Shown here: positions 13,430-29,262 of the stretch, piece after piece
How positions within the stretch are numbered: the stretch's first letter is position 1
Layout of the letters: each line of letters starts with the position of its first letter
Assembly (NCBI RefSeq): GCF_017745095.1
Contig: NZ_JAGHZZ010000021.1
Coordinates: forward strand, 1 to 64,000
Direction: 5' to 3'
Source of the DNA: Sporocytophaga sp.
Lineage (GTDB): Bacteria > Bacteroidota > Bacteroidia > Cytophagales > Cytophagaceae
DNA length: 64,000 bases
Program-made: the position numbers and the translations under genes
Notes under the pieces: generated by a model
What the model saw: the letters and a program-made list of their open reading frames with translations, nothing else
Told to the model about the DNA's origin: nothing
The model's database searches: none

Positions 13430-13458
13430 TTATCCCCATTCATTAGATTAAAAACATT

Positions 13459-13481
13459 CATATAAACGAACAGTTTATATG
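13459..13481. repeat. Perfect inverted repeat before the DUF202 gene (possible operator)
   Basis: CATATAAAC-gaaca-GTTTATATG is a perfect 9-5-9 inverted repeat, 35 bases upstream of the DUF202 start codon. It is AT-rich and followed by A rather than T, so it is a better candidate for a protein binding site than for a terminator. No regulator is encoded next to it. Confidence 0.5.
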
Positions 13482-13516
13482 AAAAAAAATGAAGTCAACG
13501 AGACTACAGGGAACCT

Positions 13517-14002
13517 ATGCAAGACGACGATAAATCCCAACTTTCCTTTAACAAGCTTCTTACCAAAAACCCTGTACATGCTTCATTTCTTTTTGCATCT
13601 CAGCGGACAGGATTAGCTTTTCAGAGAACACGTCTGAGTGCTGACAGGACATTAATGTCTGTGATAAGGACTTCTCTGTCTCTGATAAGTTTCGGGTTCA
13701 CAATTTTTCAGATTTTCTTGCACCTAAGAGAGGAATTCCATAAACACTGGAGATCATTGATGCCTAGAACATTAGGGTTTATCCTTGTTATACTTGGCAT
13801 CTTAATGCTGATCATTGGGATAGCTTATCATGTTAGGTTTATGAAACAAATCCGTATTGAAAGAGAAGAGATGATGAACAAAGGCCTCCTTCCTGATGAG
13901 GATAAATTTCCAGTTTCTTTTACCTTAATTGTTGCTACGCTTTTGCTTCTTGCTGGGATTTCTGCTGCAATTTATATGATAATCCAGGCAATGAAAATTT
14001 AA
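13517..14002 (+). CDS. DUF202 inner membrane protein (YidH-like)
   Basis: 161 residues. The family signature is present near the N-terminus: LAFQRTRLSADRTLMSVIRTSLSLISFGF split over residues 36-62, with the conserved R-T-x-L-A/S-x-x-R-T-x-L arrangement. Three membrane helices follow (about 52-72, 88-110 and 133-158), with a charged cytoplasmic loop REEMMNKG. In other organisms DUF202 proteins occur as small membrane proteins or as membrane parts of polyphosphate-synthesis (VTC) complexes. No function can be assigned from this sequence alone. Confidence 0.85.
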   Translation: MQDDDKSQLSFNKLLTKNPVHASFLFASQRTGLAFQRTRLSADRTLMSVIRTSLSLISFGFTIFQIFLHLREEFHKHWRSLMPRTLGFILVILGILMLIIGIAYHVRFMKQIRIEREEMMNKGLLPDEDKFPVSFTLIVATLLLLAGISAAIYMIIQAMKI

Positions 14003-14145
14003 CCATCCCTACATCAAAACAGACACCCACCCTATAAAAACACAATAAATATAAAAAAATCAATAGAAATTTTAACATAAAAAACTTCTTACGCATACAT
14101 TTCTACAAACATCCATCAAAATTTTGACCTAAAACCAAAAAGGTT

Positions 14146-14208
14146 ATTTTTATCCTATACAAGGGAATTTTTGTCCTGCAACTTCCCTATGATTAATCTT
14201 TACCTTTA
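14146..14208 (+). promoter_or_regulatory. Direct repeats with 21-bp spacing upstream of araC-type gene
   Basis: ATTTTTATCCT (14146-14156) and ATTTTTGTCCT (14167-14177) differ at one base and start exactly 21 bp apart, two helical turns, the usual geometry of AraC-family half-sites. A weaker copy ATTTTGACCT is at 14121-14130. A -7-like TACCTTTA lies at 14201-14208, so the repeats would flank the -33 region, where an activator can contact RNA polymerase. Autoregulation by the adjacent protein is inference. Confidence 0.55.
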
Positions 14209-14223
14209 AATCAAATAAGCAAC

Positions 14224-15120
14224 ATGAAAGATCTGCCTGTCTTGACTATCAGTAATTTTGAAGACTACAATCATTGTCAGCATTGCGGCAATAGTTTCTA
14301 CATCAGAACTTTTGACAAGCACCTACAGGACAATCTGTTTCTGGATAAGCCCCATGGCCATGATTTCTTTATATTGCTTTTCATAACCAATGGTTCAGGA
14401 ACGCACAGTATTGATTTTAAAAACTATGAAATAAAGACTGGTAGTTTATTCTTGCTATCTCCGGGACAAGTCCATCACTGGAATTTATCTTCAGACATCA
14501 ATGGATATATTCTATTCTTTACAAAAGAATACTTTCTATTAGACTTTAACTATAACAAGCTTTTAACACTGCCTTTCTTTTACACTCATATCAATTCGCC
14601 TTGTATGGAGATTAAAGTAGAGGATATTGAGCAAGTATCAAACATCTTTAAAAAAATTGATGATGAGTATCTGACCAAAAGAAGGTTTTTCCATGATGTC
14701 ATTAGGCTCAATCTTAAAATGCTACTGATTGAACTTGAAAGAAAATATACAGCAAATCAACAAACTCCTGGCCTTATGCAATATCAGATCAATCAGTTGC
14801 ATAAGCTGGAGACATTGATCGATGCACATTATAAAGAGCACAAACAGATTTCTGAATATGCAGACATGATGAATATCTCTCTAAAACAGTTGAACAGTCT
14901 ATGCAAAAAGGCACTTAATAAAACACCGGGAGACTTACTACAGGAGCGACTCATCCTTGAAGCCAAGAGACTTCTGGTTTATTCGGATAAGTCAGTCAGC
15001 TCTATTGCCGCTATTCTAAATTATACTGACAATTCATATTTCATAAGATTATTCAGAAAGCTGACTAGCGTGACACCAGAGCAATTCAGGACAATTCAAC
15101 TATCAGAATACATTAATTAA
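14224..15120 (+). CDS. AraC family transcriptional regulator
   Basis: 298 residues. The N-terminal half is a cupin-type sensor: HGHDFFILLFITNGSGTHSID, then GSLFLLSPGQVHHW, about residues 40-86. The C-terminal 100 residues contain two helix-turn-helix units: ISEYADMMNISLKQLNSLCKK, then VSSIAAILNYTDNSYFIRLFRK and the closing VTPEQFR. Cupin-type AraC proteins usually respond to a small molecule. The next gene, 83 bases downstream on the same strand, is cyanase, so cyanate or a derived signal is a reasonable but unproven ligand. Phased direct repeats upstream suggest self-control. Confidence 0.92.
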   Translation: MKDLPVLTISNFEDYNHCQHCGNSFYIRTFDKHLQDNLFLDKPHGHDFFILLFITNGSGTHSIDFKNYEIKTGSLFLLSPGQVHHWNLSSDINGYILFFTKEYFLLDFNYNKLLTLPFFYTHINSPCMEIKVEDIEQVSNIFKKIDDEYLTKRRFFHDVIRLNLKMLLIELERKYTANQQTPGLMQYQINQLHKLETLIDAHYKEHKQISEYADMMNISLKQLNSLCKKALNKTPGDLLQERLILEAKRLLVYSDKSVSSIAAILNYTDNSYFIRLFRKLTSVTPEQFRTIQLSEYIN

Positions 15121-15203
15121 AATACCTGTGGCAGACAATTTTGCTTTTGACGCAGACTTGAAATTCGGAATAAAATTATACATAACCCTTTACTATATTA
15201 ATT

Positions 15204-15647
15204 ATGATCACCAAAATTGAAATGACTGAAGCCATCATTGCAGCAAAAGCAAAAAAGAACACCACATGGACAGAAATCTCCAAATGCATTGGCTTATCTG
15301 AAATATTTACTACCTCTGCATGTCTTGGTCAGAACACGCTATCTAAAACAGAAGCGGAACAATTAGGCTCATACCTGGAGCTGAGTCCAGATGTCGTAAA
15401 AACGTTACAAGTCTTCCCAAGCAAAGGACCAGGTCAAGAAATATCTACAGACCCACTTATATATAGATTCTTTGAAATCTGTTTTGTATATGGACCAACT
15501 CTTAAAGAAGTTATTCAGGAAAAAATGGGAGACGGTATTATGAGTGCAATTGATTTCACTATGAATGTAGATAAAGTAGAAGATCCAAAAGGAGATCGAG
15601 TGATCGTTACCATGAACGGGAAATTTTTACCTTATAAGAAATGGTAA
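15204..15647 (+). CDS. cynS: Cyanase (cyanate hydratase)
   Basis: 147 residues, close to the 156 of Escherichia coli CynS. The N-terminal five-helix part (KNTTWTEISKCIGLSEIFTTSA) and the C-terminal dimer part are both complete. The active-site residues can be seen: Arg and Glu in YRFFEICFVYG (about 92-102) and Ser in DGIMSAIDF. The enzyme converts cyanate and bicarbonate to ammonia and carbon dioxide (two molecules) in the cytoplasm. No carbonic anhydrase (cynT) or cyanate transporter (cynX) accompanies it. It probably detoxifies cyanate or yields nitrogen. A good terminator follows. Confidence 0.95.
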   Translation: MITKIEMTEAIIAAKAKKNTTWTEISKCIGLSEIFTTSACLGQNTLSKTEAEQLGSYLELSPDVVKTLQVFPSKGPGQEISTDPLIYRFFEICFVYGPTLKEVIQEKMGDGIMSAIDFTMNVDKVEDPKGDRVIVTMNGKFLPYKKW

Positions 15648-15674
15648 AACAATAAATTACAAACAAATTATACT

Positions 15675-15713
15675 ATCCCTGCAATAGATTTAAATCTGGC
15701 AGGGATTTTTTTT
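15675..15713 (+). terminator. Rho-independent terminator after cynS
   Basis: ATCCCTGC pairs perfectly with GCAGGGAT over a 16-base loop and is followed directly by eight T. Confidence 0.88.
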
Positions 15714-15749
15714 CAATAAAATAAACCTACAATTATTCTGCACTACGCT

Positions 15750-15771
15750 TAACACCGCCTTAACATTAAGG
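15750..15771. promoter_or_regulatory. TTAACA direct repeat / CCTTAA palindrome upstream of TPR regulator
   Basis: TTAACA occurs at 15750 and again 11 bp later at 15761, and the second copy is part of a palindrome CCTTAA-CA-TTAAGG (15758-15771). An 11-bp direct-repeat period is the geometry of PHO boxes in other phyla. A related sequence lies before the phytase gene (about 17568) and another at 61261-61277. The binding protein is unknown. Confidence 0.35.
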
Positions 15772-15824
15772 TAATAATTAGGAAATAATATTGTATCTGA
15801 CAATGGATAACTTGCTCAGCATAC

Positions 15825-17477
15825 ATGAAAAGATTTACTAAATTCATTTTTTACTTACTTTTTCAACTATCATATATTCATTTACTTGCTTCTCCATCAA
15901 ACGACACTCCTGAAGAGAAGATAGAAATATTATTAAAACAAGCGGAAGCATTACTACCTTCCAAACCCGACTCATCAATCTTTATAGCAGACCTTATCCT
16001 TGAGCTCTCAAAACAGGAGAACTATAAAACAGGACAAGCTAAGGCTCATCAGCTTATAGGATCTGTATTTTATCATCAAGGTGTTTATCATGAAGCTCTC
16101 ATACACCTCCAGCAGGCAGAAGTTTTATTAAAAGATATCGGAAACGAATCCGGAATAGCTGAAAACCATGGGCAGCTGGGATTGCTGTATGCTACTATCA
16201 AACAACCGGAACTTGCTCATAAATATCAGGAAGAGGCTCTTAATATATACGAAAAGCTGGGAGATAAAAAGGGACTTGCCTATGCTTATGGAAATCTTGG
16301 AAGGTTATATGAGAAGAAACAGCAATACGTACAGGCAATAAATTATCAGGAGAAAGCACTTAATTTTTATACTGAGATTAATGATTCTGCTGGTTTGGCC
16401 ACAATAATGGAGAACATCGGTAGTATCTATGAAGACAAGGAGATGTTTACAATTGCCCACTCATTTTTTATAAAATCACTCCATTTGTCTGCTAATAACA
16501 AAGATAGCCTCTTAATGGCTATCAACTTTAATAATATAGCTGACATTTATCGCAAAACCGGTATTTATGATTCTGCAATACATTATACAAATCAATCGCT
16601 TCAAATTGCAATCAAAATTAAAGACAAATATCAGATTAGCAGTGCTTATAAGGATCTAAGCAAAATATATTCGGGATTAAAAGACTACCAAAATGCATAT
16701 AAGAATCTTGAGCTTGGAAGAACAATTTATGAAGACATGTATAAATCAGAAACTGCCCGTCAGGTTTCACTTATGCAGAGCCTGTTCCAGATGGAGCGCA
16801 AAAACAGCGAAATACAAAAACTAGAACTTGACAGGAAGTTCAATTATCTAATCAAATCTATGCTGATCGCTGGTCTGTTCATAGTAGTTCTTGTAGGAGT
16901 CTTAATAATAAGCAGACAGAAAAACAGATTATTAAATAAAGAAAAGCAATTAAAGTCTGACAAAGAACAGTTTGATGCCCATAAAAGCCGCATGAGCAAT
17001 GAACTTGAGACAATCAACATAAAACAACAACAATTACAAACTGAACTCGACACAAAGGCTAAGTCATTGACAGCACACACCCTACATATTATAGGTAAAA
17101 ATAAAATGCTGGAAGAAATCAGAGAGATGCTGACCATTACTATTAAAGAAGATCCGAAAGTTCAAAAAATGAATTTGAAAAATCTTATTAAACAGATAGA
17201 TCAGAGTTTCATTCAGGATAAAGACTGGACTGATTTCAGAACAATCTTCGAACAGGTGCATCAGGATTTTTTTATAAAGCTTCAACAAATAAACGCTGAC
17301 CTCACCCCTGCTGATTTAAGATTGGCAGCCTTGATTAAACTCAATTTACCTTCAAAGGATATTGCAACTACACTTGGTATATCTCAGGATAGTTTGAGAA
17401 TTGCTCGATACAGACTCAGAAAAAAAATGAACTTATCAGAAGGTGAAAACCTCATTAATTTTATCCTTAATCTTTAA
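15825..17477 (+). CDS. Membrane-bound TPR sensor-regulator with C-terminal HTH
   Basis: 550 residues. A signal peptide (1-22) is followed by six or seven tetratricopeptide repeats (about 35-310; for example GLAYAYGNLGRLYEKKQQY), a membrane helix (about 345-364), a Lys/Gln-rich coiled coil (365-430) and a C-terminal DNA-binding region with a LuxR-like helix-turn-helix (LTPADLRLAALIKLNLPSKD, then ATTLGISQDSLRIARYRLRKK). This periplasmic TPR - membrane - cytoplasmic HTH layout is common in Bacteroidota and its signals are mostly unknown. It lies just upstream of the phytase gene on the same strand, 200 bases away, and could regulate that cluster. Confidence 0.85.
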   Translation: MKRFTKFIFYLLFQLSYIHLLASPSNDTPEEKIEILLKQAEALLPSKPDSSIFIADLILELSKQENYKTGQAKAHQLIGSVFYHQGVYHEALIHLQQAEVLLKDIGNESGIAENHGQLGLLYATIKQPELAHKYQEEALNIYEKLGDKKGLAYAYGNLGRLYEKKQQYVQAINYQEKALNFYTEINDSAGLATIMENIGSIYEDKEMFTIAHSFFIKSLHLSANNKDSLLMAINFNNIADIYRKTGIYDSAIHYTNQSLQIAIKIKDKYQISSAYKDLSKIYSGLKDYQNAYKNLELGRTIYEDMYKSETARQVSLMQSLFQMERKNSEIQKLELDRKFNYLIKSMLIAGLFIVVLVGVLIISRQKNRLLNKEKQLKSDKEQFDAHKSRMSNELETINIKQQQLQTELDTKAKSLTAHTLHIIGKNKMLEEIREMLTITIKEDPKVQKMNLKNLIKQIDQSFIQDKDWTDFRTIFEQVHQDFFIKLQQINADLTPADLRLAALIKLNLPSKDIATTLGISQDSLRIARYRLRKKMNLSEGENLINFILNL

Positions 17478-17614
17478 AGAACATAGATATAACAATTTGA
17501 TAACACTTCACATTATACTGAACTTTAATCACTTAATTACTAAAAACTCTACTTTGTTGCCCTTCTGTTAACGCCGTCAAACATCAATGTTGCCCAAATG
17601 TATACATCAAAATA

Positions 17615-17645
17615 TTGCAGCCCCTGCCCTGTTAAACTAACCTTG
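17615..17645 (+). promoter_or_regulatory. Promoter of the phytase gene cluster
   Basis: TTG (17615-17617), 20 bases, then TAACCTTG (17638-17645), one mismatch from TAnnTTTG. The same 20-base spacing is seen at the ArsR and Lrp promoters in this window. The start codon follows 32 bases downstream. About 40 bases upstream is the sequence TTAACGCCGTC, similar to the site before the TPR regulator. Confidence 0.55.
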
Positions 17646-17677
17646 CAATGAAATTTTAAAAACACAAAAAGGATTCT

Positions 17678-18811
17678 ATGCAAAAGTTTTTGAACTGGAG
17701 TTTAATATTAAGCCTCCTTTCATCCTGTAATACTTCACACCCCTTAAATGAAAAAATTCCGGAACAGCCTATTGTTAGTACTTCTGTTATAAAACCACTT
17801 TATATCTCAGAGGCCGTTCAATTTGATACTGATGATCCTGCCATCTGGATCAACAAGGATGATCCAGCCCAAAGTCTTATTATCGGAACAGATAAAAATG
17901 AAGATGGTGCTCTTTACACATTTGATCTTAAAGGAAGAATCCATACCAATAAAGTCATAAAAGGCTTAAAACGCCCTAATAATGTGGACATTGAATATGG
18001 ACTGCCGATTAAAGGAATAACAACTGATATTGCAGTAGTCACTGAAAGATTTACACATAACTTAAGAATATATGCACTTCCATCAATGACACCGGTTGAT
18101 GGGGGTGGCATTCCTGTATTCGAAGGAGAAACGGCTCCCGAAAGCAGAGATTTGATGGGTATCGCCTTATATAAAGATCCTGTTACTTCTAAAATATTTG
18201 CAATTGTTGGCAGAAAGACGGGAACAGATGGCGACTACCTGTGGCAATATGAGCTTTGGTCTGACGAACATGGAATAGTAAAAGCATCACTTGTAAGAAA
18301 ATTCGGTTCCTACAGTGGCAATAAAGAGATTGAAGCAATTGCTGTAGATGATGAGCTTGGGTATGTATACTATTCTGATGAAGGCGTAGGCGTGAAGAAA
18401 TACTATGCAAATCCTGCGAAAGGTAATAAAGAACTAGCACTCTTTGCAACAAAGGGTTTTACTGCTGACCATGAAGGTATCTCTATTTATAAAACCAGTG
18501 AGAAAGAAGGTTATATTCTGGTTTCTGACCAGGGAGCAAATAAATTTCAGATCTTCTCAAGAGAAGGTACACCCTCCAATCCCAATGAACACAAGCATTT
18601 AAAAACCATTCAGGTAGCTGCAATGGAAAGTGATGGTTCTGAAATCACTAATGTGTCATTAAATCAAGAGTTTAAATCCGGCCTGTTTGTGGTAATGTCT
18701 ACTGACAAAACTTTTCATTATTACCGCTGGGAAGATATCGCAGAAAATGATCTGAAATCGTCTCCCGATACAGTTTACAAGAATGGATCTATATCACTCA
18801 AAAGAGAATAA
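17678..18811 (+). CDS. Beta-propeller phytase lipoprotein (3-phytase)
   Basis: 377 residues. A lipoprotein signal peptide ends at LSSC (Cys17). The mature part has the beta-propeller phytase hallmarks: DTDDPAIWINKDDP (about 49-62), a calcium and substrate segment GTDKNEDGALYTFDL, RPNNVDIEYG, EAIAVDDELGYVYYSDEG and DHEGISIY. These enzymes are calcium-dependent alkaline phytases that release phosphate from inositol hexakisphosphate outside the inner membrane. The gene precedes a TonB receptor gene by 41 bases, then a lipoprotein and, after a terminator, a phosphatase, making a coherent organic-phosphate scavenging set. Confidence 0.94.
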   Translation: MQKFLNWSLILSLLSSCNTSHPLNEKIPEQPIVSTSVIKPLYISEAVQFDTDDPAIWINKDDPAQSLIIGTDKNEDGALYTFDLKGRIHTNKVIKGLKRPNNVDIEYGLPIKGITTDIAVVTERFTHNLRIYALPSMTPVDGGGIPVFEGETAPESRDLMGIALYKDPVTSKIFAIVGRKTGTDGDYLWQYELWSDEHGIVKASLVRKFGSYSGNKEIEAIAVDDELGYVYYSDEGVGVKKYYANPAKGNKELALFATKGFTADHEGISIYKTSEKEGYILVSDQGANKFQIFSREGTPSNPNEHKHLKTIQVAAMESDGSEITNVSLNQEFKSGLFVVMSTDKTFHYYRWEDIAENDLKSSPDTVYKNGSISLKRE

Positions 18812-18852
18812 TCGAGCATTAAAAACTCTCCAGAAGATTAAAATATTAACTG

Positions 18853-21648
18853 ATGAAACAGATCATTTACTTCAGGAATATCTTATCACTTGCAATATTC
18901 TGCTTGTTGATTGCTAAGTATTCTGAAGCTGCTACATTTAAAGGTAAAATCAACGGACCAGATAAGGAACCACTTACCGGCGCTCAGATCTCAATACCTG
19001 GTCTTCAGAGTGGAACGATTGCTGGTTTGGACGGCTCATTCCATCTTAGTGATATTCCCATTGGCATACATGAAGTTCGTGTCACATTCATCGGCTTTAA
19101 AGATATCATTGATATCATTGAGATTAAACAGAACGACGAAACGATGATCAAGTCATTTCTTATGGAAGCTCATCTCCAAGAGCTCAAAGAAGTAGTCGTT
19201 ACTGCTCATACTGACAAAGGCACCGATACAGAAGCCAGAAGCATTGAGAAAAAAGCTACACAAACAATGAATGTTGTTTCAGCTAAAACCATTGCCCTTT
19301 CTCCTGACATCACTGTTGCCAATGTAATTCAACGCGTTTCCGGATTATCATCTGAAAGAAGCAGTAATGGAGATCCACAGTATGCTATCGTAAGAGGTAT
19401 GGACAAAAGATATAGTTATACCCTTGTAAACGGATTAAAAATACCCAGCCCTGAAAATAAAAACAGATATGTTCCTTTAGACATCTTTCCTGCTAATCTA
19501 CTTGAACGGCTTGAAGTATATAAGAGTCTTACCGCAGACCAGGAAGGTGATGCCATCGCCGGAGGTATAAACATGGTTATGAAGAGTGCTCCTGAAACCT
19601 TCGAAGTTAAAGGAGATGTACAAACAGGTTATAATTACATCAATAAGATACAGGGCTTTCAAACATATAATGCTTCAGCTATCCAGAAGCTCTCACCTAG
19701 AGAATTATATGGCTCAGATTATCAAGCTCAGCCATTGGATTTTACAATTAAGAATCTGGAAACTCAAAAGATAAATCCTATGCCTGACTTTAATGGTTCT
19801 TTGTCTGCTGGCAGCAGACTAGTTAATAAACGCCTGGGAATAATGATAGGTCTTAGCGGCCAAAACTCTTATCGTGGTACTAAAAGCACATGGTTTGATG
19901 TTGCAACCGATCGCTTTGGATCCAACAGGCCAGCCCTTCAGAGCATGCAGGAAAGGAACTACAGCACCAGACAATTCAGGACAGGAGTACATGGACGAAT
20001 AGATTTCAGAATTAATGAAAACCATAAAATAGGGAACTACACAGGATTTTATAATCTGAATTTATTCGAAGTAAGAGATATCAGGCAGACTATGCTTGAT
20101 GGAAGAAACTATGATGACAAAGCAGGAAATGCAATTCTTTCATACAAGACAAGAGTAAAAACTACTTACCAAAAAATTTTCATTACTAATTTCCAAGGAA
20201 ATCATAAGCTCGCAAAATCATTCAAATTTCACTGGTCAATTGCGCTTTCTCAAGCCAATATGGAGCGCCCGGACAATGCTACATTCCTAAGAAACGGTGA
20301 ACTTAAAAACTTTGTAGAACAACCACAGAATATAGAAAGAGGTAATTCAAGAAGGTGGGAACACAATCAGGACAAAGATATTTCAGGTTATCTTAATTTA
20401 ATTTATCAGCCGGAGCAATGGAAGAAAACATTTCTTAAAACAGGCATGATGTTCCGTAATAAAAACAGAGATAATTATTTCAACAAATACGCATTCGACC
20501 CTAATCCAAGTCTTCAATTGCAGGGAAAAGACTGGAATAGTTATTCAGATGTTCAATGGGACCTTTTAAATCCTGCCGGAAGTACATCTGATGAGCTTAA
20601 TTATCAAGCCCGAGAAAACATTACAGCATGTTACCTCCTTGGAAAAAGTGAAGTTTTAAATACAGAAGTTAATATTGGTGTCAGAGTTGAAAACACTAAT
20701 CAGGGCTATACTTTAAAAAGTCCTAAAGAAAATCAGACAGCTGACAGTTCACAACATTATACTGATGTATTGTCAAGTCTAAGTTTAAAATATAAAATCT
20801 CACCAATCCAAAATCTAAGATTAACTTATTACAAAGCTATTTCAAGGCCAGGCTTCTTTGAGATTGTTCCTTATCAGCTAGAAGATGATGATTATAAAGA
20901 AGCCGGAAACCCAGGGCTAAAGAGAGTAAAAGCAGACAATATAGATCTTAGATGGGAATTATTTCCCTCTCCTTCAGAACAAATACTTATAGGTGGATTT
21001 TACAAAAGAATTAAAGACCCTATAGAATATGCTCTGATAAGAAGCGGAGTCAACAATGCCCCTATGATTGTTCCGGGTAACTATGGTACTGCTTTTAACA
21101 CAGGAATAGAAGTAGACTTCACAAAGTATTTTAATAAAATAGGTATCAGAGGTAATTACACCTTTACACATTCACAGATCAGTGCGCCAAAAGCTTTACG
21201 AACAAGGGAAAACCCTGCAGATCCTACAAGTAATCTTATACTGACGAATGTGATGCAGAAGAGAACATTACAAGGACAGGCCAAACATATTGCAAATATT
21301 TCCATACTCTTCAAAGATCTGAAGCATGGTCTCGAAGCTCAACTTTCCGGTATATATACAGGAGAAAGACTTGAGGTCATCTCTCCTTTTCTTGATAATG
21401 ATATGTATGCTAAGCCCGTCTTTCAGTTAGATTTTTCATTTGAGAAAAAATTATTGAAAAAGTTAGAAGTCCTTCTTAAAATAAATAATCTTCTTAACTC
21501 TCCTTATGAAGTATACATCAAGAAGCCTGTATATAAAGACGAAGGAAGCACTCTTAGTTACCCGATGCAGACATCATCCACTAAGACTCTGGTAAGAAAA
21601 GATCAGTTTTATCAATCATTCCGATTGGGCATAAGATTCGAATTTTAA
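18853..21648 (+). CDS. TonB-dependent outer membrane receptor next to phytase
   Basis: 931 residues. A signal peptide (1-26), then a carboxypeptidase-regulatory-like beta sandwich (about 27-112), a plug domain (about 135-240, containing NVIQRVSGLSSERSSNGDPQ and VRGMDKRYSYTLVNGLKIP) and a 22-strand type barrel ending in the terminal aromatic FRLGIRFEF. The plug and its RGM-x-x-R-Y segment resemble the receptors found beside beta-propeller phytase genes in Bacteroidota and Caulobacter-like bacteria. It probably takes up inositol phosphates or a calcium-phytate product using TonB energy. The substrate is inferred only from the neighbour. Confidence 0.92.
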   Translation: MKQIIYFRNILSLAIFCLLIAKYSEAATFKGKINGPDKEPLTGAQISIPGLQSGTIAGLDGSFHLSDIPIGIHEVRVTFIGFKDIIDIIEIKQNDETMIKSFLMEAHLQELKEVVVTAHTDKGTDTEARSIEKKATQTMNVVSAKTIALSPDITVANVIQRVSGLSSERSSNGDPQYAIVRGMDKRYSYTLVNGLKIPSPENKNRYVPLDIFPANLLERLEVYKSLTADQEGDAIAGGINMVMKSAPETFEVKGDVQTGYNYINKIQGFQTYNASAIQKLSPRELYGSDYQAQPLDFTIKNLETQKINPMPDFNGSLSAGSRLVNKRLGIMIGLSGQNSYRGTKSTWFDVATDRFGSNRPALQSMQERNYSTRQFRTGVHGRIDFRINENHKIGNYTGFYNLNLFEVRDIRQTMLDGRNYDDKAGNAILSYKTRVKTTYQKIFITNFQGNHKLAKSFKFHWSIALSQANMERPDNATFLRNGELKNFVEQPQNIERGNSRRWEHNQDKDISGYLNLIYQPEQWKKTFLKTGMMFRNKNRDNYFNKYAFDPNPSLQLQGKDWNSYSDVQWDLLNPAGSTSDELNYQARENITACYLLGKSEVLNTEVNIGVRVENTNQGYTLKSPKENQTADSSQHYTDVLSSLSLKYKISPIQNLRLTYYKAISRPGFFEIVPYQLEDDDYKEAGNPGLKRVKADNIDLRWELFPSPSEQILIGGFYKRIKDPIEYALIRSGVNNAPMIVPGNYGTAFNTGIEVDFTKYFNKIGIRGNYTFTHSQISAPKALRTRENPADPTSNLILTNVMQKRTLQGQAKHIANISILFKDLKHGLEAQLSGIYTGERLEVISPFLDNDMYAKPVFQLDFSFEKKLLKKLEVLLKINNLLNSPYEVYIKKPVYKDEGSTLSYPMQTSSTKTLVRKDQFYQSFRLGIRFEF

Positions 21649-21690
21649 CAAAAAAACATAACATATACCATTTACTCAAAAGTTAACAAC

Positions 21691-23274
21691 ATGAAAAAAG
21701 TAACACATTATCTTTTAATGCTTACTGCGGCACTTTTCCTTTTTGCTGCATGTAAGAAGGAGGAAAAAGTAAATCCTACCCCTCCTCAAATTTCATCAGA
21801 TGTTTCCATGCTTGCGGCAAAGTTCGGAGAGACTAAAACGATTACTATATCTGTATCAGCAGCTGGAAAGTTAAAAGACATTACAGCAACGACAACTATT
21901 GGAACAATACAAACTTCCAATCTTACAGGCGTGGGTACTGCCACAGGAACTGTTACTATTACATTCAATGCTCCATTTGAGGAAGGAACAGGTAAAATAA
22001 CAGTTATCGCTTCAGACGAGGGCGGCCTTACAAAGACTTCAGAAATAGATGTAACTGTTTCAGCAGCAGCACCAGTAGAATTGACCGCCGGAGATGTTGA
22101 AGGTGTGTGGGGACCAAATATGACTTATATCGTTCGTGGCAACATTAAAATCCCCAAAGGAAAATCACTGACGATTAAAGAAGGTGTAACTGTAATCGTT
22201 GAAGGTGATGGCACACAAGCAAACAGTCCAGAGATCGCTGTTTACGGTAAACTATATAGCTATGGTACAGAGCAGAAACCAATACTTATAACAGTGGCAG
22301 AAAGCAAAAGAACAGAAGCAAATATTTTTGCAGGTCTATGGGGTGGAATATGCGGAGTTGAAGATGTAGAAGAAATGGCAATCATTTACACCAGAATAGA
22401 ATATGCAGGTGCTCCGGCTCCTGCAAACAGCCCAATGGTGACGACAGGAGAAGTTGAAGAAGGAGATCCGAGATATAGCATATATTTCAATAACCCAAAT
22501 GGAAGATTTGTAATGATGCATTCAACCATTGCTAATTCTAAAGATGATGGAATGAGAATCAATCAGGGACAATTACTAGTAGCTTACAACACATATATCA
22601 ACACTGGAAAAACAGGTGGCGAGGCTTTAAACGTAAAAAGTGGTTGTATAGGAGATGTTGCGTACAATACAATGGTTAATGCGGCAACAAATGGTTTAAA
22701 ATGTTCTAACTCAGATGACAGATCACCTCAGACAGATATATACATTTATAACAACACTATAGTAAATTCAGGATGGAGACAAACCAAAGCAGGTCGTGGT
22801 GGATCTTTAAATCTTGAAAAAGGCGGAAGAGGAAAAGTATATAACAATATGATTGTGAACTGTCGTTATGGAGTGCGTTTCCCTAAGTCACCAGATAACC
22901 CGGATCTAGTAAACTCATACGCAGGATACAACTATTATTTCGGAAACAATGCAGATATCGCAGATCAGTTCTATCCATCAACAGGTTCATTGGTTAAAGG
23001 CGACCTAGAAACAGGTAATGATGTATCAGGAAACGCAAATGAAAATGATCCTAAATTCGTTAATTTCAACATATCAGGATTCGATTCAGAAGCAGCTAAA
23101 AATTCTGATAACATTAAAGATCCTGGAACTTTTAACCTTAAACTACAGGCGGGTTCTCCAGCATTAGGAAAAGGCAAGGAAGGATTTACTTCCAGACTAT
23201 CTTCATTGACGATAGATGGAAAGACATATTCAGCTCCTGCACCTTCTTCTTTTATAGGATCATCAGGAAATTAA
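21691..23274 (+). CDS. Beta-helix surface lipoprotein downstream of the TonB receptor
   Basis: 527 residues. A lipoprotein signal peptide ends at LFAAC (Cys21). Residues 40-130 form an Ig-like or cadherin-like domain rich in Thr and Val. The C-terminal part (about 135-500) has the look of a right-handed parallel beta helix: repeated short strands with GRFVMMHSTIANSKDDGMRI and YIYNNTIVNSG, and an opening GNIKIPKGKSLTIKEGVTV typical of such repeats. By position, 42 bases after the receptor gene, it may serve as the receptor's surface partner in binding substrate, in the manner of SusD-like proteins, although it is not a SusD homologue. No catalytic residues are recognised. Confidence 0.82.
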   Translation: MKKVTHYLLMLTAALFLFAACKKEEKVNPTPPQISSDVSMLAAKFGETKTITISVSAAGKLKDITATTTIGTIQTSNLTGVGTATGTVTITFNAPFEEGTGKITVIASDEGGLTKTSEIDVTVSAAAPVELTAGDVEGVWGPNMTYIVRGNIKIPKGKSLTIKEGVTVIVEGDGTQANSPEIAVYGKLYSYGTEQKPILITVAESKRTEANIFAGLWGGICGVEDVEEMAIIYTRIEYAGAPAPANSPMVTTGEVEEGDPRYSIYFNNPNGRFVMMHSTIANSKDDGMRINQGQLLVAYNTYINTGKTGGEALNVKSGCIGDVAYNTMVNAATNGLKCSNSDDRSPQTDIYIYNNTIVNSGWRQTKAGRGGSLNLEKGGRGKVYNNMIVNCRYGVRFPKSPDNPDLVNSYAGYNYYFGNNADIADQFYPSTGSLVKGDLETGNDVSGNANENDPKFVNFNISGFDSEAAKNSDNIKDPGTFNLKLQAGSPALGKGKEGFTSRLSSLTIDGKTYSAPAPSSFIGSSGN

Positions 23275-23290
23275 TCTTTAACTTATGAAA

Positions 23291-23326
23291 AACAGCTCTG
23301 CACATTGGTGACAGAGCTGTTTTATT
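23291..23326 (+). terminator. Terminator after the beta-helix lipoprotein gene
   Basis: AACAGCTCTG pairs perfectly with CAGAGCTGTT over an 11-base loop and is followed by TTATTTT. It closes the phytase-receptor-lipoprotein unit. Confidence 0.85.
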
Positions 23327-23451
23327 TTGAATTACTAAAGAGATTCCCATCTTCTGAAGGTGGTATTCTATCCGCATTCATCTGTCTTTTCATATCTTTG
23401 GTGAATTCCTATAGAAAGATTATTTAATTTATAATAAACTATTAATTTCCA

Positions 23452-24417
23452 ATGCACTTCACAATCCATTTAAATTCCTTACTAAAAAAAACTTTACTGA
23501 TCCATCTCATTTTAATATCACTATTTGCTTCTACTTGTCTTGCTCAAATAAAAAAAGCTGATAAAATCCCTGTGGAATCCAATGCTATTCGTTTCTTCTT
23601 TGTAGGCGATTGGGGAAGAAATGGAGAACATAATCAGCAGGAGGTGGCTGATCAAATGGGAAAAACAGGAGAAACATTTGATCCCAAATTTATTATTTCT
23701 GCAGGAGATAATTTCTACTGCTGTGGAGTAGCAAGTACTGAAGATCCACAATGGAAATATTCTTTTGAAGATGTATACAGAGCTCATTCCCTTAATATTC
23801 CATGGTTTCCTATTCTTGGTAACCATGATTACCTCGGTAACCCTCAAGCTCAAATAGACTATTCCCAAATCAGCAGAAGATGGAGAATGCCGGCCAGATA
23901 TTACACGGTGAATATGAAAGATGTTATATTTATTTTTCTTGACACCAATCCTTTTATCAAAAAGCATTATAAAAAACAAGGAGAATATGCGGATGTGGCC
24001 CGTCAGGATACATTAAGGCAACTTCAATGGCTGGATAGTACATTAGTCAACAGTAAAGAAAAATGGAAGATCGTTGTGGGCCATCATCCTGTTTATTCCA
24101 CAGGAAGCAAGCATGGCAGTACCCCAGAACTTATTCAAACATTAAAACCTGTTTTAGAAAAACATCATGTTCAATTATATCTTGCCGGGCATGATCATGA
24201 CTTGCAATTTCAAAAACCAGTCAATAGCAGTGTAAATTATCTGATCAGCGGAGCGGGTTCAGAAGTAAGACCAAATACTCCTGATCCAGCAATGACTAAA
24301 TATGCAGCTGCAGTGGCGGGATTTATGGCATTCTCTATACTTGACAATAAACTCATTGTATATTTCATTGATAAAAAAGGAAATGTGATTTATCAAACTG
24401 AAATATTACAGAATTAA
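23452..24417 (+). CDS. Secreted metallophosphatase, purple (tartrate-resistant) acid phosphatase type
   Basis: 321 residues with a signal peptide (1-31). All five calcineurin-like metallophosphoesterase blocks are present: GDWG (52-55), GDNFY (85-89), GNHDY (123-127), GHHPVYS (210-216) and GHDH (246-249). The Tyr after GDNF and the spacing match the small purple acid phosphatases, which use a two-metal centre to hydrolyse phosphate monoesters outside the inner membrane. The position next to the phytase cluster suggests it finishes phosphate release from partly dephosphorylated inositol phosphates. A -7-like TATCTTTG lies at 23393-23400, so it likely has its own promoter. Confidence 0.92.
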   Translation: MHFTIHLNSLLKKTLLIHLILISLFASTCLAQIKKADKIPVESNAIRFFFVGDWGRNGEHNQQEVADQMGKTGETFDPKFIISAGDNFYCCGVASTEDPQWKYSFEDVYRAHSLNIPWFPILGNHDYLGNPQAQIDYSQISRRWRMPARYYTVNMKDVIFIFLDTNPFIKKHYKKQGEYADVARQDTLRQLQWLDSTLVNSKEKWKIVVGHHPVYSTGSKHGSTPELIQTLKPVLEKHHVQLYLAGHDHDLQFQKPVNSSVNYLISGAGSEVRPNTPDPAMTKYAAAVAGFMAFSILDNKLIVYFIDKKGNVIYQTEILQN

Positions 24418-24427
24418 AAAGTGAATT

Positions 24428-24466
24428 ATGAAAGAGTTGAAAGCCCTAACATTTCAGCTCTTTCAT
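24428..24466. terminator. Long inverted repeat between convergent genes (bidirectional terminator)
   Basis: ATGAAAGAGTTGAAA and TTTCAGCTCTTTCAT pair over 15 bp (one G-U) around a 9-base loop. It lies between the stop of the phosphatase gene and the stop of the convergent oxidoreductase gene. The T-runs are not adjacent, so the termination strength is uncertain. Confidence 0.6.
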
Positions 24467-24496
24467 ATCAATCTAAGATCAATCATTAAAGGAATT

Positions 24497-25489
24497 TTAA
24501 GGAAAAACACTCGCAAACAACTCATAAGATTTCAATCTGTCTTCAAAATCAAATGCGGCATTTACAGCCATTATTTCATTAACATCATATTCATCGGCAA
24601 GTGTTGTAAGTTGCTTCCTGAGTTCTTCCGGAGTGCCAATTGCAAAGCGTTGACTGTTCAAAGCGATCCTTTGCTCCTCAGCCGGACCGTATTTTACATC
24701 TTTTATTTCTTCGAAGGTAACAGGATCAAAACGACCTTTTGTTTCTAGCTGCAAAAATCTATAATTCAATACCGCTTTCACTTGTTCATTTCTTTCTTTT
24801 GAATCAGAACAAAACATAAAAAGTGCAACCAGTACCCTTGGCATTCTGAGTTGTTCGGAAGGTTTAAAATAGTTCCTGTAAACTTCTACAGCCCTAGCAC
24901 CTCCATTCGGATTAATAAAATGAGCAAACGCGAATGCCATTCCCAAATGGGCAGCAAATAGACCGCTTTGTCCACTGGAACTTAATACCCACTGTTCTGG
25001 AATACCTTTAACTACGGGAGTTGCAAGTACCTTTCCCCTATCAGATTCAGATCTTAGAGAATCATTAAGATAACCTTGAAGATCTTGAAGTTGCTCTATA
25101 AAATCCTGTTCACTGAAATGATTATGAGGGTTAAGCAATGAAGCTGTAAGCCTATCCCCTCCGGGAGCCCGTCCAACACCCAAGTCTATGCGTCCAGGAG
25201 CAAGAGCCTCCAATATCCTGAAATTTTCCGCTACTTTTAAAGCACTGTAATGAGGCAACATTACACCACCCGACCCTATTCTTATCTTTTTTGTCTGAGC
25301 TGCCAGATAACCCAATAATACCTCTGGCGATGAGCCCGCAACAGAATACATATTATGATGCTCTGAAACCCAGAATCTTTGATATCCTAGATTATCTGCA
25401 AGCTTGGCAAGCTCAATTGTCGATGCCAATGCCTGCTCTGCTGTTCCACCTTTAGGGATATGAGATTGATCTAATACACTTATATACAT
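24497..25489 (-). CDS. Luciferase-like (LLM class) flavin-dependent oxidoreductase
   Basis: 330 residues from the ATG at 25489. A GTG seven codons further upstream is possible, but family members begin MxxSVLDQ directly. Conserved blocks are ELAKLADNLGYQRFWVSEHHN, AGSSPEVLLGYLAAQT, IRIGSGGVMLPHYSALKVAE, PGRIDLGVGRAPGGD and SSSGQSGLFAAHLG. It belongs to the YhbW-like subgroup that uses reduced FMN without a fixed partner. Its substrate is unknown. It stands alone, convergent with the phosphatase gene. Confidence 0.92.
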   Translation of the reverse strand: MYISVLDQSHIPKGGTAEQALASTIELAKLADNLGYQRFWVSEHHNMYSVAGSSPEVLLGYLAAQTKKIRIGSGGVMLPHYSALKVAENFRILEALAPGRIDLGVGRAPGGDRLTASLLNPHNHFSEQDFIEQLQDLQGYLNDSLRSESDRGKVLATPVVKGIPEQWVLSSSGQSGLFAAHLGMAFAFAHFINPNGGARAVEVYRNYFKPSEQLRMPRVLVALFMFCSDSKERNEQVKAVLNYRFLQLETKGRFDPVTFEEIKDVKYGPAEEQRIALNSQRFAIGTPEELRKQLTTLADEYDVNEIMAVNAAFDFEDRLKSYELFASVFP

Positions 25490-25692
25490 TTCGAAAAACT
25501 TTTTTTTCACAATCTACTGATATTCAACAACAGTACTACCTAATTTGGTTTCCCTTGTACCACTGGGTATCAAGAAGCCTAATGTAAAACACATAATGTC
25601 ATTTTTCAACCTATAAACTTTAATTTTAGCAGTCAACTTCAGAATTACAACCAAAAAATTTTCTAACTTTAAATAACCAATATTATTTAAAT

Positions 25693-26076
25693 ATGAGAGC
25701 ATTACATTTAGCTATCGTCTTCATGGTACTTCTTTCGGTTCAATCATTTTCCCAAAGCAATTTTGATTCCTATAAAATGGCCGAAAAGACAGTGCAAGAG
25801 CTTAATGATCGCATGCTGCTAACTTCTCAGAAGAAAGATTCTCTCATCCTTATTTTTAACAGATACTATTCTGACAAAAATCTCAATAAAACCAAAGACA
25901 ACGAAAAATTCGCCAAAGCGATAGAACAGAGTAGAGACATGAGTGTGAAACAAGTGCTATCTCCATTTAGCTATCAGGAGTACTTGAGATATATCGAAGA
26001 ACAGAAGGGGAAAGTAAAAACAAAAGAAAGATTAAGACACGGAGAAAGAGAATCCACCAATCTAATTGACTTTTAA
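25693..26076 (+). CDS. Small secreted protein of unknown function
   Basis: 127 residues with a signal peptide (about 1-20, ending SFSQ). The mature part is helical and highly charged, with QELNDRMLLTSQKKDSLILIFNRYY and a basic C-terminus KGKVKTKERLRHGERES. The helical, Leu/Gln/Asp pattern recalls small periplasmic Spy/LTXXQ-like proteins, but I cannot confirm this. It precedes the haem-binding-domain gene by 31 bases on the same strand and may be co-transcribed with it. Confidence 0.65.
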   Translation: MRALHLAIVFMVLLSVQSFSQSNFDSYKMAEKTVQELNDRMLLTSQKKDSLILIFNRYYSDKNLNKTKDNEKFAKAIEQSRDMSVKQVLSPFSYQEYLRYIEEQKGKVKTKERLRHGERESTNLIDF

Positions 26077-26107
26077 TAAAATATAGGTATTGTATTTATT
26101 CGCTTAA

Positions 26108-26569
26108 ATGAAGAAAAAAATTATTTATGGAGCATTGCTCCTGCTTATTGCAATTCAGTTTGTAAGACCAGAAAAAAATGAAGGTATAGCGGATACTCCA
26201 AATGATGTAACACATCATGTTGATGTTCCGGAGAGTACATTAAAAATTCTGAAAACCTCTTGTTACGATTGCCATTCTAATCATACCAATTACCCTTTGT
26301 ATTCGGAGATAATGCCTTTTGGATGGTTCCTTGCAAGCCATGTAAAGGATGGTAAAAGACATTTAAACTTTTCAGACTTTTCAAAATACACAAAAAAGAA
26401 AATTGATCATAAACTAGAGGAGACAGCGGAAGAAGTTGAAAAACATGATATGCCTCTTTCAACTTATCTGATCATGCATTCTGAGGCAAAGCTAAATGAA
26501 AGTCAGACTCAGGAAATTATTGAGTGGGTAAATAGAGAAAGAGCTAAGCTGCAGGCATCGGGACTTTGA
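26108..26569 (+). CDS. Haem-binding domain protein (CXXCH)
   Basis: 153 residues. An N-terminal membrane anchor or signal (about 1-20) is followed by the block SCYDCHSNHTNYPLYSEI (residues 51-68), which has the haem-attachment motif CYDCH (52-56), and then PFGWFLASHVKDGKRHLNFS. This is the Bacteroidota haem_bd domain, normally found alone or next to peroxidases and cytochromes. It is a probable periplasmic mono-haem c-type protein. Its redox partner is unknown. Confidence 0.88.
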   Translation: MKKKIIYGALLLLIAIQFVRPEKNEGIADTPNDVTHHVDVPESTLKILKTSCYDCHSNHTNYPLYSEIMPFGWFLASHVKDGKRHLNFSDFSKYTKKKIDHKLEETAEEVEKHDMPLSTYLIMHSEAKLNESQTQEIIEWVNRERAKLQASGL

Positions 26570-26598
26570 TAATAATTTGCTAATAAAAATGCGTAAAT

Positions 26599-26630
26599 AA
26601 AAAGGAGTAAGCTTGATGCTACTCCTTTTT
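26599..26630. terminator. Bidirectional terminator between convergent genes
   Basis: AAAAAGGAGTA pairs perfectly with TACTCCTTTTT over a 10-base loop, giving a T-run on both strands. It serves the haem-binding gene (plus) and the TonB receptor gene (minus). Confidence 0.88.
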
Positions 26631-26658: not shown

Positions 26659-29262
26659 TTATTTACTTCTATTATCTTTCCCACCTTTTCCTCTTACCGG
26701 GCCTTGTCTCTGCTCACTTCCTCCCTGACCTCCTGACGGCATATCTGACATGTTTGTACCATCACCACCTCCTCCATCTTTCAGGTCATCATTATTGATA
26801 AGCTTCCTTCTCTTTTTAGGCTTAGCATCTTCCATTGACATCTTTCCTATTTTATAAGTGAAGGTTACCTTAAAGTTCATATTATGAAGAACATTGGTAC
26901 TCTTCTGATTGATGACTGGAGATACTAGTTCACTTCTGATTCTATATGAAGTGTTGAAAAAGTTTTCTGCACCAAATCCGATACTTCCTTTATCATCCTT
27001 AAGTTGTTTTCTGAAATTAAGACTATAAATACCAAATCCTCCCTGATAGCCTTGCAACTGTACCTTCCTCCCTCTATAAAAACCAAAAAACTGTACTTCC
27101 CAACTTTTAGGTAATTTATAACCTGCCATCATTCTATAATTAGCAACCCATCCCTCATTGCTTGCATTATAAATAGGATCAGGTACATTATTTCTTAATA
27201 CTGCATAGTACACATCAGTTCCTCCGTTCAAGGTAAACTTATCTGATAACTTAATATTGGCAAAAATACTGAAGCCATAAGTGTTTTCGCTCCCTATATT
27301 CTGATATGTAGTAACGATGGTATCTCCCTTTACATTTCTTACACTTTGAATGGCATTGTTAGAGTTTTTTGCAAAAGTTGAAATCGTCAAAGAACTTCTT
27401 TTAATATACGCATTGTAAGCCAGCTCAAAGTTGTTGGTATATTCCGGATCAAGATTTGGATTACCAAACGATACATTAAGTGGATTAGATGCCTGAAGAT
27501 TGGGATTCAAATATCTCAATGATGGTCTCTGAATTCTTCTGTTGTAAGAGGCTTTGACAATATTTCCACTTTTCAGTTTTCTTGATATATTGATACTTGG
27601 AACAAGTATTCCATATGATGGAATATCGATAGCATCACCTCCGTTTTGAAGTCTTGCATCAATTGTGGTGTATTCATAACGCAATCCAACTTTCGCACTA
27701 TACACTTTCTTCAGAGTTACCGTTGCAGCGGAATAAGCAGAAGCAACATTCTGATTATAATTCAGCTTATTACTTAAAGTATTATTACTAAGTTCAGTAA
27801 AGCTTCCGTCGCTTCCAGGAGCGGAGAAGTACTTATAGTTACTTGTAACGTTTCTATATATATTTTTCACTCCTGCTTCAAGCATGATCATTGAATCTAT
27901 CGGAGTCTGATAATCCGCCTGGAAGGTTACTTCCTGATTATAACTATTATTTATGTTCTTTAACCTACTTGTTGTTGAAAGACCTAAACTGTCCATGATG
28001 GAATTTGTAAAGTCATTAACACTTTTGTCTCTGCTGTACAATGCCATAAAACTCAACTCTCTCATTGGCTTCTTAAAGAGGTGAGTATAGTTTAAATTCA
28101 GGTCCAGGTTGTTATTATTGTTTTTAGTGAATACATTCCTTATTCCTATATTCTCTAAGATTCCACTCTGATAAGTTTCAGTAGTAAGATTATCCTGATA
28201 GTTTTTACCATTTCTGAAACCAAACTTGGCAGAGGCTGTAAGCAAGTTATTTTTATCAATATCATAATCCCACCCGAATTGATAATTACCAAATCCATGA
28301 AAATTTCTAGTGTTCGCATACTGAACATTTTCATTCACTTCACCTGTTTCACTAACCGTTGTCTGAGTGTTTCTAAAGCTACCTGGTGTATTATAACTCC
28401 ATCTTCCGTTTCCTCCAAGAGAGAAACCCATCTTCCCTTTTCTATAACTCCCATTTAAACCCAGGCTGGAAGCTCTGAGTCCCGTACTTCCGTCAATGCT
28501 AAGCATTGCACCTTGCAAATTATTTTTTTTGGTAATGATATTAATAATACCTGCTGAACCTTCAGCATCATATTTAGCAGAAGGAGAAGTGATCACTTCA
28601 ACAGACTTGATCATATCTGCTGGTATCTGTCTTAAAGCATCAGCAACACTGGTAGCTGTGATTGTCGATGGCTTATTATTTATGAGTACCTTTACATTTT
28701 CACTACCTCTCAAGGAAACATTACCATCAAGGTCTACAGAAAGCATTGGTACCTTTCTTAGTACATCAGCTGCGTCACCACCTTTGTTACCTGCATCATT
28801 TTCTGCATTATACACGGTGCGGTCCACCTTTTCTTCAAATAAAGGTTTTTCACCCATCACAGTAACTTCTTTTAATTGCTGAACAGTCTGACTTAATTTA
28901 ATCTCACCAAGCTCAATATTTTCTTTGCCATCAGATACAGAGATTCCTTTTATTACTTTAGTATCATAACCGATAAAAGAAATTTCAACATTATAAACTC
29001 CGGCTTCAATTTTAGTAATTTCAAATTTACCATTTTCGTCTGCCATGGTTCCATTAACCGGATTACCGGATTCCTGGCTTATCAGTGCAACAGTCGCAAA
29101 AGGAACAGACGCACTATTGGCAGAATCTTTAATCACACCCTCAATCTTACCTTTACCTTTAGGAACTGTCGGAATAGCATTATTTGCTCCAGATGGAGGA
29201 GTTTGGGCTAAAATAATATTTGTAAATGCCAATAGAATGCAAAAAACGATTGAGTACTTCAC
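26659..29262 (-). CDS. TonB-dependent receptor with outer membrane beta-barrel 3 domain
   Basis: 867 residues, starting at a GTG at 29262; no in-frame ATG precedes the signal peptide (about 1-19, ending ILAQ). Domains are a carboxypeptidase-regulatory-like fold (about 38-125), a plug (about 140-240; DAADVLRKVPMLSVDLDGNV and SAKYDAEGSAGIINIITKK) and a barrel with the family block NIVKASYNRRIQRPSLRYLN. The C-terminus is unusual: after the last strand come about 60 residues rich in Lys, Gly, Asp and Ser (GGGGDGTNMSDMPSGGQGGS), probably a flexible tail. The substrate is unknown, and no SusD-like partner is adjacent. Confidence 0.92.
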   Translation of the reverse strand: MKYSIVFCILLAFTNIILAQTPPSGANNAIPTVPKGKGKIEGVIKDSANSASVPFATVALISQESGNPVNGTMADENGKFEITKIEAGVYNVEISFIGYDTKVIKGISVSDGKENIELGEIKLSQTVQQLKEVTVMGEKPLFEEKVDRTVYNAENDAGNKGGDAADVLRKVPMLSVDLDGNVSLRGSENVKVLINNKPSTITATSVADALRQIPADMIKSVEVITSPSAKYDAEGSAGIINIITKKNNLQGAMLSIDGSTGLRASSLGLNGSYRKGKMGFSLGGNGRWSYNTPGSFRNTQTTVSETGEVNENVQYANTRNFHGFGNYQFGWDYDIDKNNLLTASAKFGFRNGKNYQDNLTTETYQSGILENIGIRNVFTKNNNNNLDLNLNYTHLFKKPMRELSFMALYSRDKSVNDFTNSIMDSLGLSTTSRLKNINNSYNQEVTFQADYQTPIDSMIMLEAGVKNIYRNVTSNYKYFSAPGSDGSFTELSNNTLSNKLNYNQNVASAYSAATVTLKKVYSAKVGLRYEYTTIDARLQNGGDAIDIPSYGILVPSINISRKLKSGNIVKASYNRRIQRPSLRYLNPNLQASNPLNVSFGNPNLDPEYTNNFELAYNAYIKRSSLTISTFAKNSNNAIQSVRNVKGDTIVTTYQNIGSENTYGFSIFANIKLSDKFTLNGGTDVYYAVLRNNVPDPIYNASNEGWVANYRMMAGYKLPKSWEVQFFGFYRGRKVQLQGYQGGFGIYSLNFRKQLKDDKGSIGFGAENFFNTSYRIRSELVSPVINQKSTNVLHNMNFKVTFTYKIGKMSMEDAKPKKRRKLINNDDLKDGGGGDGTNMSDMPSGGQGGSEQRQGPVRGKGGKDNRSK

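Follow-up and report, generated by a model that had tools for sequence, protein, structure and literature searches.

Among the stores of organic phosphorus in soil, phytate is a main one and, to our knowledge, its passage across the Gram-negative outer membrane is not settled. Here we ask whether a locus of Sporocytophaga sp. (Bacteroidota; assembly GCF_017745095.1) holds a system for this passage, and which of its parts belong together. The locus lies in a 64,000-nucleotide stretch, hereafter the window (contig NZ_JAGHZZ010000021.1, positions 1 to 64,000). An initial annotation had described it as an organic-phosphate island in which a candidate regulator precedes a beta-propeller phytase, a TonB-dependent receptor (TBDT), a beta-helix lipoprotein and a purple-acid-type phosphatase, and had suggested a full path from phytate capture to uptake. 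Open frames together with domain and model evidence corroborate five genes of these kinds, all on the plus strand, between positions 15825 and 24417 of the window. Our results reveal that the constant core of the arrangement is the TBDT and the lipoprotein, not the whole five-gene set, and they moderately favor a role of the window block in organophosphate uptake.

The TBDT gene (18853-21648, plus strand) encodes a CarboxypepD-reg-like N-terminal domain followed by plug and barrel domains, and is succeeded by the gene for a surface-type lipoprotein (21691-23274, plus strand) with an Ig-like domain and a right-handed beta-helix. In the best 80 of 439 relatives by lipoprotein similarity, which constitute our named loci and in some of which the receptor is split or cut by a contig end, a receptor homologue lies directly upstream of the lipoprotein on the same strand in every case (80/80). 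Because these loci were chosen by lipoprotein similarity, 291 genomes of the order were searched with each protein separately, counting lipoprotein places above 100 bits (the next match, at 58.8 bits, and weaker ones were dropped) and receptor places at E ≤ 1e-80 (weakest, 8e-147). This yielded 47 lipoprotein and 47 receptor places in 41 genomes, and all 47 form pairs within 3 kb, with the receptor upstream on the same strand; scoring covered up to five lipoprotein and three receptor candidates in each genome, which leaves weaker unpaired ones possible. In two of the pairs the matches are about 1.2 kb apart. The lipoprotein thus holds the position of a SusD partner, as the initial annotation had proposed, and is conserved beside its receptor; the initial annotation had named lack of this conservation as a refuting condition, and the counts do not refute it. 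In a tree of the 80 lipoproteins, whose deeper joins are unsure owing to long branches, the window protein sits on a long end branch and groups with that of Chryseolinea lacunae (support 100/99); the five rows made up of it and L071-L074 form a group supported at 90/95, below the starred level, and the layout with the phytase first requires two changes. A locus from a metagenome-assembled genome titled Clostridiaceae (L114) has its lipoprotein among those of Bacteroidales, probably through a binning error.

The five genes constitute one accessory block, gained or lost as a unit. We searched the DNA of three congeners (G016, G017 and G018) with window positions 13500-26600 as the query. The entire block is present in G016 at 89% DNA identity. 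In the other two it is missing as a single unit: both flanks lie side by side, 99 bp (G017) and 25 bp (G018) apart, and the block DNA between them is unmatched, with one extra short match located elsewhere in G017. Local alignment places the joint where 13449-15653 (G017) or 13450-15706 (G018) abuts 24493/24503 onward, which delimits a block at approximately 15706-24492 (no strand assigned; start within 15654-15706, end within 24492-24502). The joint falls 3′ of a cyanase gene and a terminator-like hairpin recognized by eye, and before a convergent luciferase-like gene; the flank with an AraC-type regulator and the cyanase shares 83% DNA identity with the two block-less congeners. Since gene order is conserved and two congeners carry an empty site, the arrangement goes beyond chance, and the phosphatase, being inside the block, has been gained or lost together with the other four genes. 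The five-gene set accordingly stands as one block in the window; outside it, a purple acid phosphatase homologue adjoins the pair in only three of 80 other loci (L108, L117 and L140). Pfam identifies no recombinase among the five block proteins, smaller frames not having been checked.

The phytase (17678-18811, plus strand) belongs to PF02333, which it matches at 140.5 bits against a cut-off of 21, and aligns with Bacillus phytase structures at 8e-31. Residues D52, D53, K73, N101-D104, E219, D264 and E266 are identical to the Bacillus chain in this alignment, at positions that we take to be calcium- and substrate-site residues, while N74 replaces the second Lys and E322 replaces an Asp. The phosphatase (23452-24417, plus strand; PF00149), with a signal-peptide-like start judged by eye, is closest to rat and human TRAP purple acid phosphatase (6e-46; 1qhw), and its GDWG, GDNFY, GNHD, GHHP (GHYP in rat) and GHDH motifs, presumably those of the metal site, align with the TRAP type, confirming its designation as purple-acid-type. 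The candidate regulator (15825-17477, plus strand) combines tetratricopeptide repeats (TPR_12 at 5e-28) with one hydrophobic segment starting at about residue 338; these two elements of a membrane TPR–helix-turn-helix (HTH) one-component regulator are clear, and the C-terminal LuxR-type HTH lies below the Pfam cut-off (GerE, E 0.0026, 17.8 bits versus 23.5).

Among the 80 named loci, the phytase shares an operon with the pair in 53, placed behind the lipoprotein in 47 and, as in the window, before the receptor in six. A TPR-HTH regulator homologue lies upstream in 47 of these 53 loci, compared to a single, divergently oriented instance in the 27 phytase-less loci; two of the six phytase loci lacking it (L073 and L143) lie at contig ends. 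These associations, together with the empty site, support an organic-phosphate island with its own associated candidate regulator.

The lipoprotein has no match in Pfam or NCBIfam at E 0.001 and no PDB sequence match, and its profile reaches at best E 0.65 against PDB. Since sequence look-ups gave nothing useful, its fold was predicted from an AlphaFold2 model (mean pLDDT 94.1, pTM 0.89), in which residues from about 28 to 125 form an Ig-like domain and those from about 126 to 451 a right-handed beta-helix. The best-aligned solved fold is a phage tailspike (Z 23.1, 259 residues, 2.9 Å), followed by the AlgG epimerase (Z 22.6, 255 residues, 2.8 Å). The beta-helix assignment relies on VIA-align, which produced both alignments; plain Foldseek returned weak, badly superposed matches (best E 5.7e-6, TM 0.16). 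The lipobox cysteine is residue 21, and the mature start C-K-K-E-E-K fits, as a sign in the sequence, the optimal surface-export signal C-X-K-(D/E)2-X established in Capnocytophaga, as given in the accessible part of PMC5080379. A lipobox is detected in 70 of the 80 lipoprotein relatives, and in 53 of these 70 at least two of the six residues that follow the cysteine are acidic. The window phytase is likewise a predicted lipoprotein (C17), lacking the acidic surface-export signal; a lipobox is detected in 20 of 52 phytases, none with an acidic start. An acidic start on the lipoproteins and none on the phytases suggests that the lipoprotein would lie outside, on the cell surface, and the phytase inside, in the periplasm.

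Taken together, these results are best read as a five-gene block for the uptake of an organophosphate, most likely phytate, with the lipoprotein as the partner of the TBDT and dephosphorylation in the periplasm, a reading that we hold to be somewhat more probable than its negation. The membrane regulator would control the block. On the cell surface, the beta-helix lipoprotein would bind a polyanionic substrate and, as partner and probably lid of the TBDT, hand it to the receptor for TonB-powered passage across the outer membrane. Once in the periplasm, the substrate would lose phosphates first to the lipid-anchored phytase and then to the purple acid phosphatase. Of this proposal, the sequences show which families the proteins belong to, that receptor and lipoprotein genes are strictly paired in close relatives, that the block behaves as a unit, and that the lipoprotein, unlike the phytase, has an N-terminus resembling an export signal; complex formation, substrate, locations, step order and regulation are inferred.

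Several observations weigh against this reading. In 27 of the 80 named loci a phytase is lacking nearby; a few of these, such as L089 and L112, end just after the lipoprotein. In the 291 genomes of the order, a phytase lies within 6 kb of 17 of the 47 pairs and none within 6 kb of the other 30, and 54 of the 71 phytases of the order are located away from the pair. We picked 15 of these 54 phytase regions by hand: nine directly adjoin a TBDT of another type (156-194 bits to the window receptor), two more have one within two genes (192 and 196 bits), and neither the window-type nor the wider-type lipoprotein, a remote family described below, occurs in the listed neighborhood of any of the 15. 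The localization argument uses a home-made lipobox pattern on mechanical open-frame starts, with lipoboxes missed or absent in ten of 80 lipoproteins and 32 of 52 phytases, and an export rule derived in other Bacteroidota. Finally, Caulobacter crescentus cells release ElpS, a lipoprotein whose gene adjoins the TBDT gene cc0171. Extracellular phosphatase activity goes up when ElpS is overexpressed and stays the same when it is deleted, and expression of cc0171 is constitutive, not following phosphate (excerpts of PMC2996285). The phytases beside a TBDT without such a lipoprotein indicate that phytase-TBDT pairing does not need it, and the notion that a phytase always requires the lipoprotein is rejected. 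With the phytase missing from the 6-kb surroundings of 30 pairs, the cargo need not be phytate alone.

These observations lead to the strongest alternative, in which the pair is a general importer of organophosphates or phosphate polymers whose cargo is set by the neighboring enzyme, phytate being one case. The pair is retained where the phytase has been lost or moved, and the downstream gene varies. In 20 of the 27 phytase-less loci a beta-propeller-like protein of 312-362 amino acids, recognized by a shared motif, is encoded directly behind the lipoprotein (L075-L088, L100, L109, L117, L125, L139 and L142), and in two others (L108 and L140) this place is taken by a purple-acid-type phosphatase. 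An inorganic pyrophosphatase (PF00719) occupies it at L107:11200-11904, and a gene resembling the latter, by eye only, at L129. None of five propeller-like proteins tested matches Pfam, and a lipobox is detected in 11 of 22, seven with an acidic start. One was modelled (mean pLDDT 90.1), and E. coli YjiK is its nearest solved fold (Z 21.2); its likeness to Bacillus phytase (Z 13.4) is one among those to many propellers, so that a second phytase in these loci is unsupported. A general importer nonetheless has to accommodate a window block that includes the phytase and a regulator that tracks the phytase, which argues for a dedicated phytate version, and we regard it as unlikely, while retaining appreciable plausibility. 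As a side observation, a purple-acid-type phosphatase homologue lies between a different TBDT and a phytase at L214, where phytase and phosphatase meet without the lipoprotein.

A less probable alternative, which we rate as distinctly doubtful, holds that the lipoprotein, rather than partnering a receptor, acts as an enzyme, such as a lyase or hydrolase of cell-wall glycans that frees bound phytate, or activates a phosphatase. Among solved folds it aligns best with beta-helices of the tailspike and polysaccharide-active kinds (Z up to 23.1), a glycan role has been proposed for the Flavobacterium johnsoniae lipoproteins FI and FII (excerpts of PMC8115612), and the effect of ElpS overexpression on phosphatase activity would fit an activator. 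However, fold likeness shows no function, no catalytic family is matched, and the strict pairing of the lipoprotein with one receptor type while the enzymes vary argues for the receptor partnership.

TBDTs classically import metal complexes, and the window receptor bears a weak likeness to a heme-receptor model, TIGR01785, which it matches at 43.8 bits where the cut-off is 316.85; the only other model listed for it is TIGR01782 (249.8 bits, cut-off 310), the SusC/RagA-family model is not matched, and no solved structure is matched by sequence at E 0.001. Uptake of a metal, iron or other, in complex with phytate or phosphate is nevertheless highly improbable given the phosphatase neighbors, the lack of an iron gene among the five block genes and the induction of three F. 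johnsoniae TBDTs under depletion of inorganic phosphate (Pi) only (excerpts of PMC8115612).

Beyond its close relatives, the window lipoprotein appears to be a remote relative of a wider family resembling Caulobacter ElpS and Flavobacterium FI/FII. A class search with the lipoprotein profile gives matches at E 1e-5 in 314 of 395 genomes, with 34 strong places above 240 bits followed by places at or below 75 bits, mostly short N-terminal matches. Profile comparison of the wider and window families gives 99.6% (E 1.6e-23, 287 columns), a score that repeats may inflate and that was obtained from family-like relatives, not the ElpS or Fjoh sequences themselves, without a control beta-helix family. 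In 17 of 20 wider-family regions hand-picked from the search lists a TBDT lies next to the lipoprotein, and L181, L183 and L198 have none; the lipoprotein of L191, matched in the class search, fell below the cut-off of the region script. An OmpR/PhoB-type response regulator is nearby in five of these regions (of six response-regulator-like candidates tested, five proved to be of this type, and Pfam cannot separate PhoB from other OmpR-type regulators).

When 119 genomes were searched with both proteins, 112 places of wider-family lipoproteins emerged, 74 of them with a listed receptor within 3 kb, and 103 receptor places, 84 of them with a lipoprotein of the wider or the window type; 38 lipoprotein places and 19 receptor places had no listed partner within that distance. 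These counts score the best candidates per genome, and in some cases several places stem from a single gene, as its pieces or repeats. On plasmids, a TBDT is the annotated neighbor of the lipoprotein in all six records examined, of 21 matching; type II secretion genes are nearby in two Alphaproteobacteria, PhoR and a phosphate-binding protein in Alteromonas, and several relatives are much longer (933-1356 amino acids; L201, L203 and L205). The window genome itself (G000) has two more pairs of a TBDT and a wider-family lipoprotein, at C22:213036-217191 and C44:276865-281204 (L182). Elsewhere, frames of about 1147-1293 amino acids each have two wider-lipoprotein profile matches (G293:C5, G331:C47, G339:C77, G366:C6 and G375:C2), and at L184:7995-11863 one TBDT is followed by two wider-type lipoproteins, one gene apart. 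We tentatively suggest, with doubt slightly outweighing confidence, that beta-helix lipoproteins form a further class of TBDT lids besides SusD and BtuG, dedicated to organic phosphorus in Bacteroidota and Pseudomonadota, the window branch having become phytate-specialized through a captured phytase and a dedicated regulator.

Within the block, the intergenic gaps are 200 bp (regulator-phytase), 41 bp (phytase-receptor), 42 bp (receptor-lipoprotein) and 177 bp (lipoprotein-phosphatase). Scans for sigma-70 promoters (34 versus 34.7 expected by chance) and terminators (5 versus 6.3) remained at chance level, and the Bacteroidota-type -33/-7 promoter pattern has no match on the plus strand of 15001-24600. 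The AraC-type regulator and cyanase genes (14224-15647, plus strand) lie directly upstream of the block, and another outer-membrane receptor (OMP_b-brl_3 type) lies outside it at 26659-29262 on the minus strand.

With exchangeable enzymes beside it, the pair is a candidate, open to testing, for organophosphate import that a lipoprotein assists in a manner distinct from the SusCD and BtuBG systems, and the neighboring enzyme could serve to predict its cargo. No earlier report of the five-gene block was found among the open-licence papers searched. As in SusC-SusD systems, a receptor gene is followed by that of a surface-type lipoprotein; the window proteins, however, match neither SusC nor SusD models at E 0.001. 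BtuG is a beta-propeller, whereas the window lipoprotein is a predicted beta-helix whose CKKEEK start supplies the surface-export signal expected of BtuG-like lids, an indication from sequence rather than a localization. One Flavobacterium lipoprotein discussed below carries IPR011050, which we take to denote the pectin-lyase fold. The BtuB-BtuG system of Bacteroides resembles the predicted window pair in joining a TBDT to a non-SusD surface lipoprotein, with the difference that the lid role and B12 binding of BtuG are demonstrated (abstract of PMC10404256), and a lid role would be conjectural for the window protein.

Closer in context are the Pi-induced lipoproteins FI, FII and FIII of F. johnsoniae. 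According to the accessible part of PMC8115612, FI and FII lie beside Pi-induced TBDTs, FII within the phoBR operon and carrying IPR011050, and FIII is an orphan; the authors' models likened these lipoproteins to polygalacturonase. The same source reports an adjacent phytase (Fjoh_1367) and TBDT (Fjoh_1368) induced by low phosphate, the only two members of that context in its Table 1, whereas the window block joins phytase, TBDT and lipoprotein; phytase-TBDT neighbors had earlier been reported in Citromicrobium (excerpts of PMC3400609). Deletion mutants for Fjoh_0546 and Fjoh_3856 of F. johnsoniae have also been reported (excerpts of PMC7807042). In C. crescentus, ElpS is produced under phosphate starvation, and its co-occurrence with Cc0171 was taken by the authors as a sign of interaction (excerpts of PMC2996285). 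The likeness to the window lies in a surface lipoprotein gene beside a TBDT gene; the similarity of the lipoproteins is remote and was measured through family-like relatives. Plasmid relatives from Indioceanicola and Sphingomonas share the ElpS-Cc0171 order of lipoprotein, TBDT and type II secretion genes given in that source, whereas in the window the lipoprotein gene follows the TBDT and a phytase and a TPR regulator replace the secretion genes. The suggestion that the lipoprotein represents a new kind of receptor partner therefore yields to these precedents: since lipoprotein-TBDT pairing is already in print for ElpS-Cc0171 and FI/FII, and BtuB-BtuG supplies a further case, the receptor partnership is real, not new in kind, and the window pair is its phytase-linked variant.

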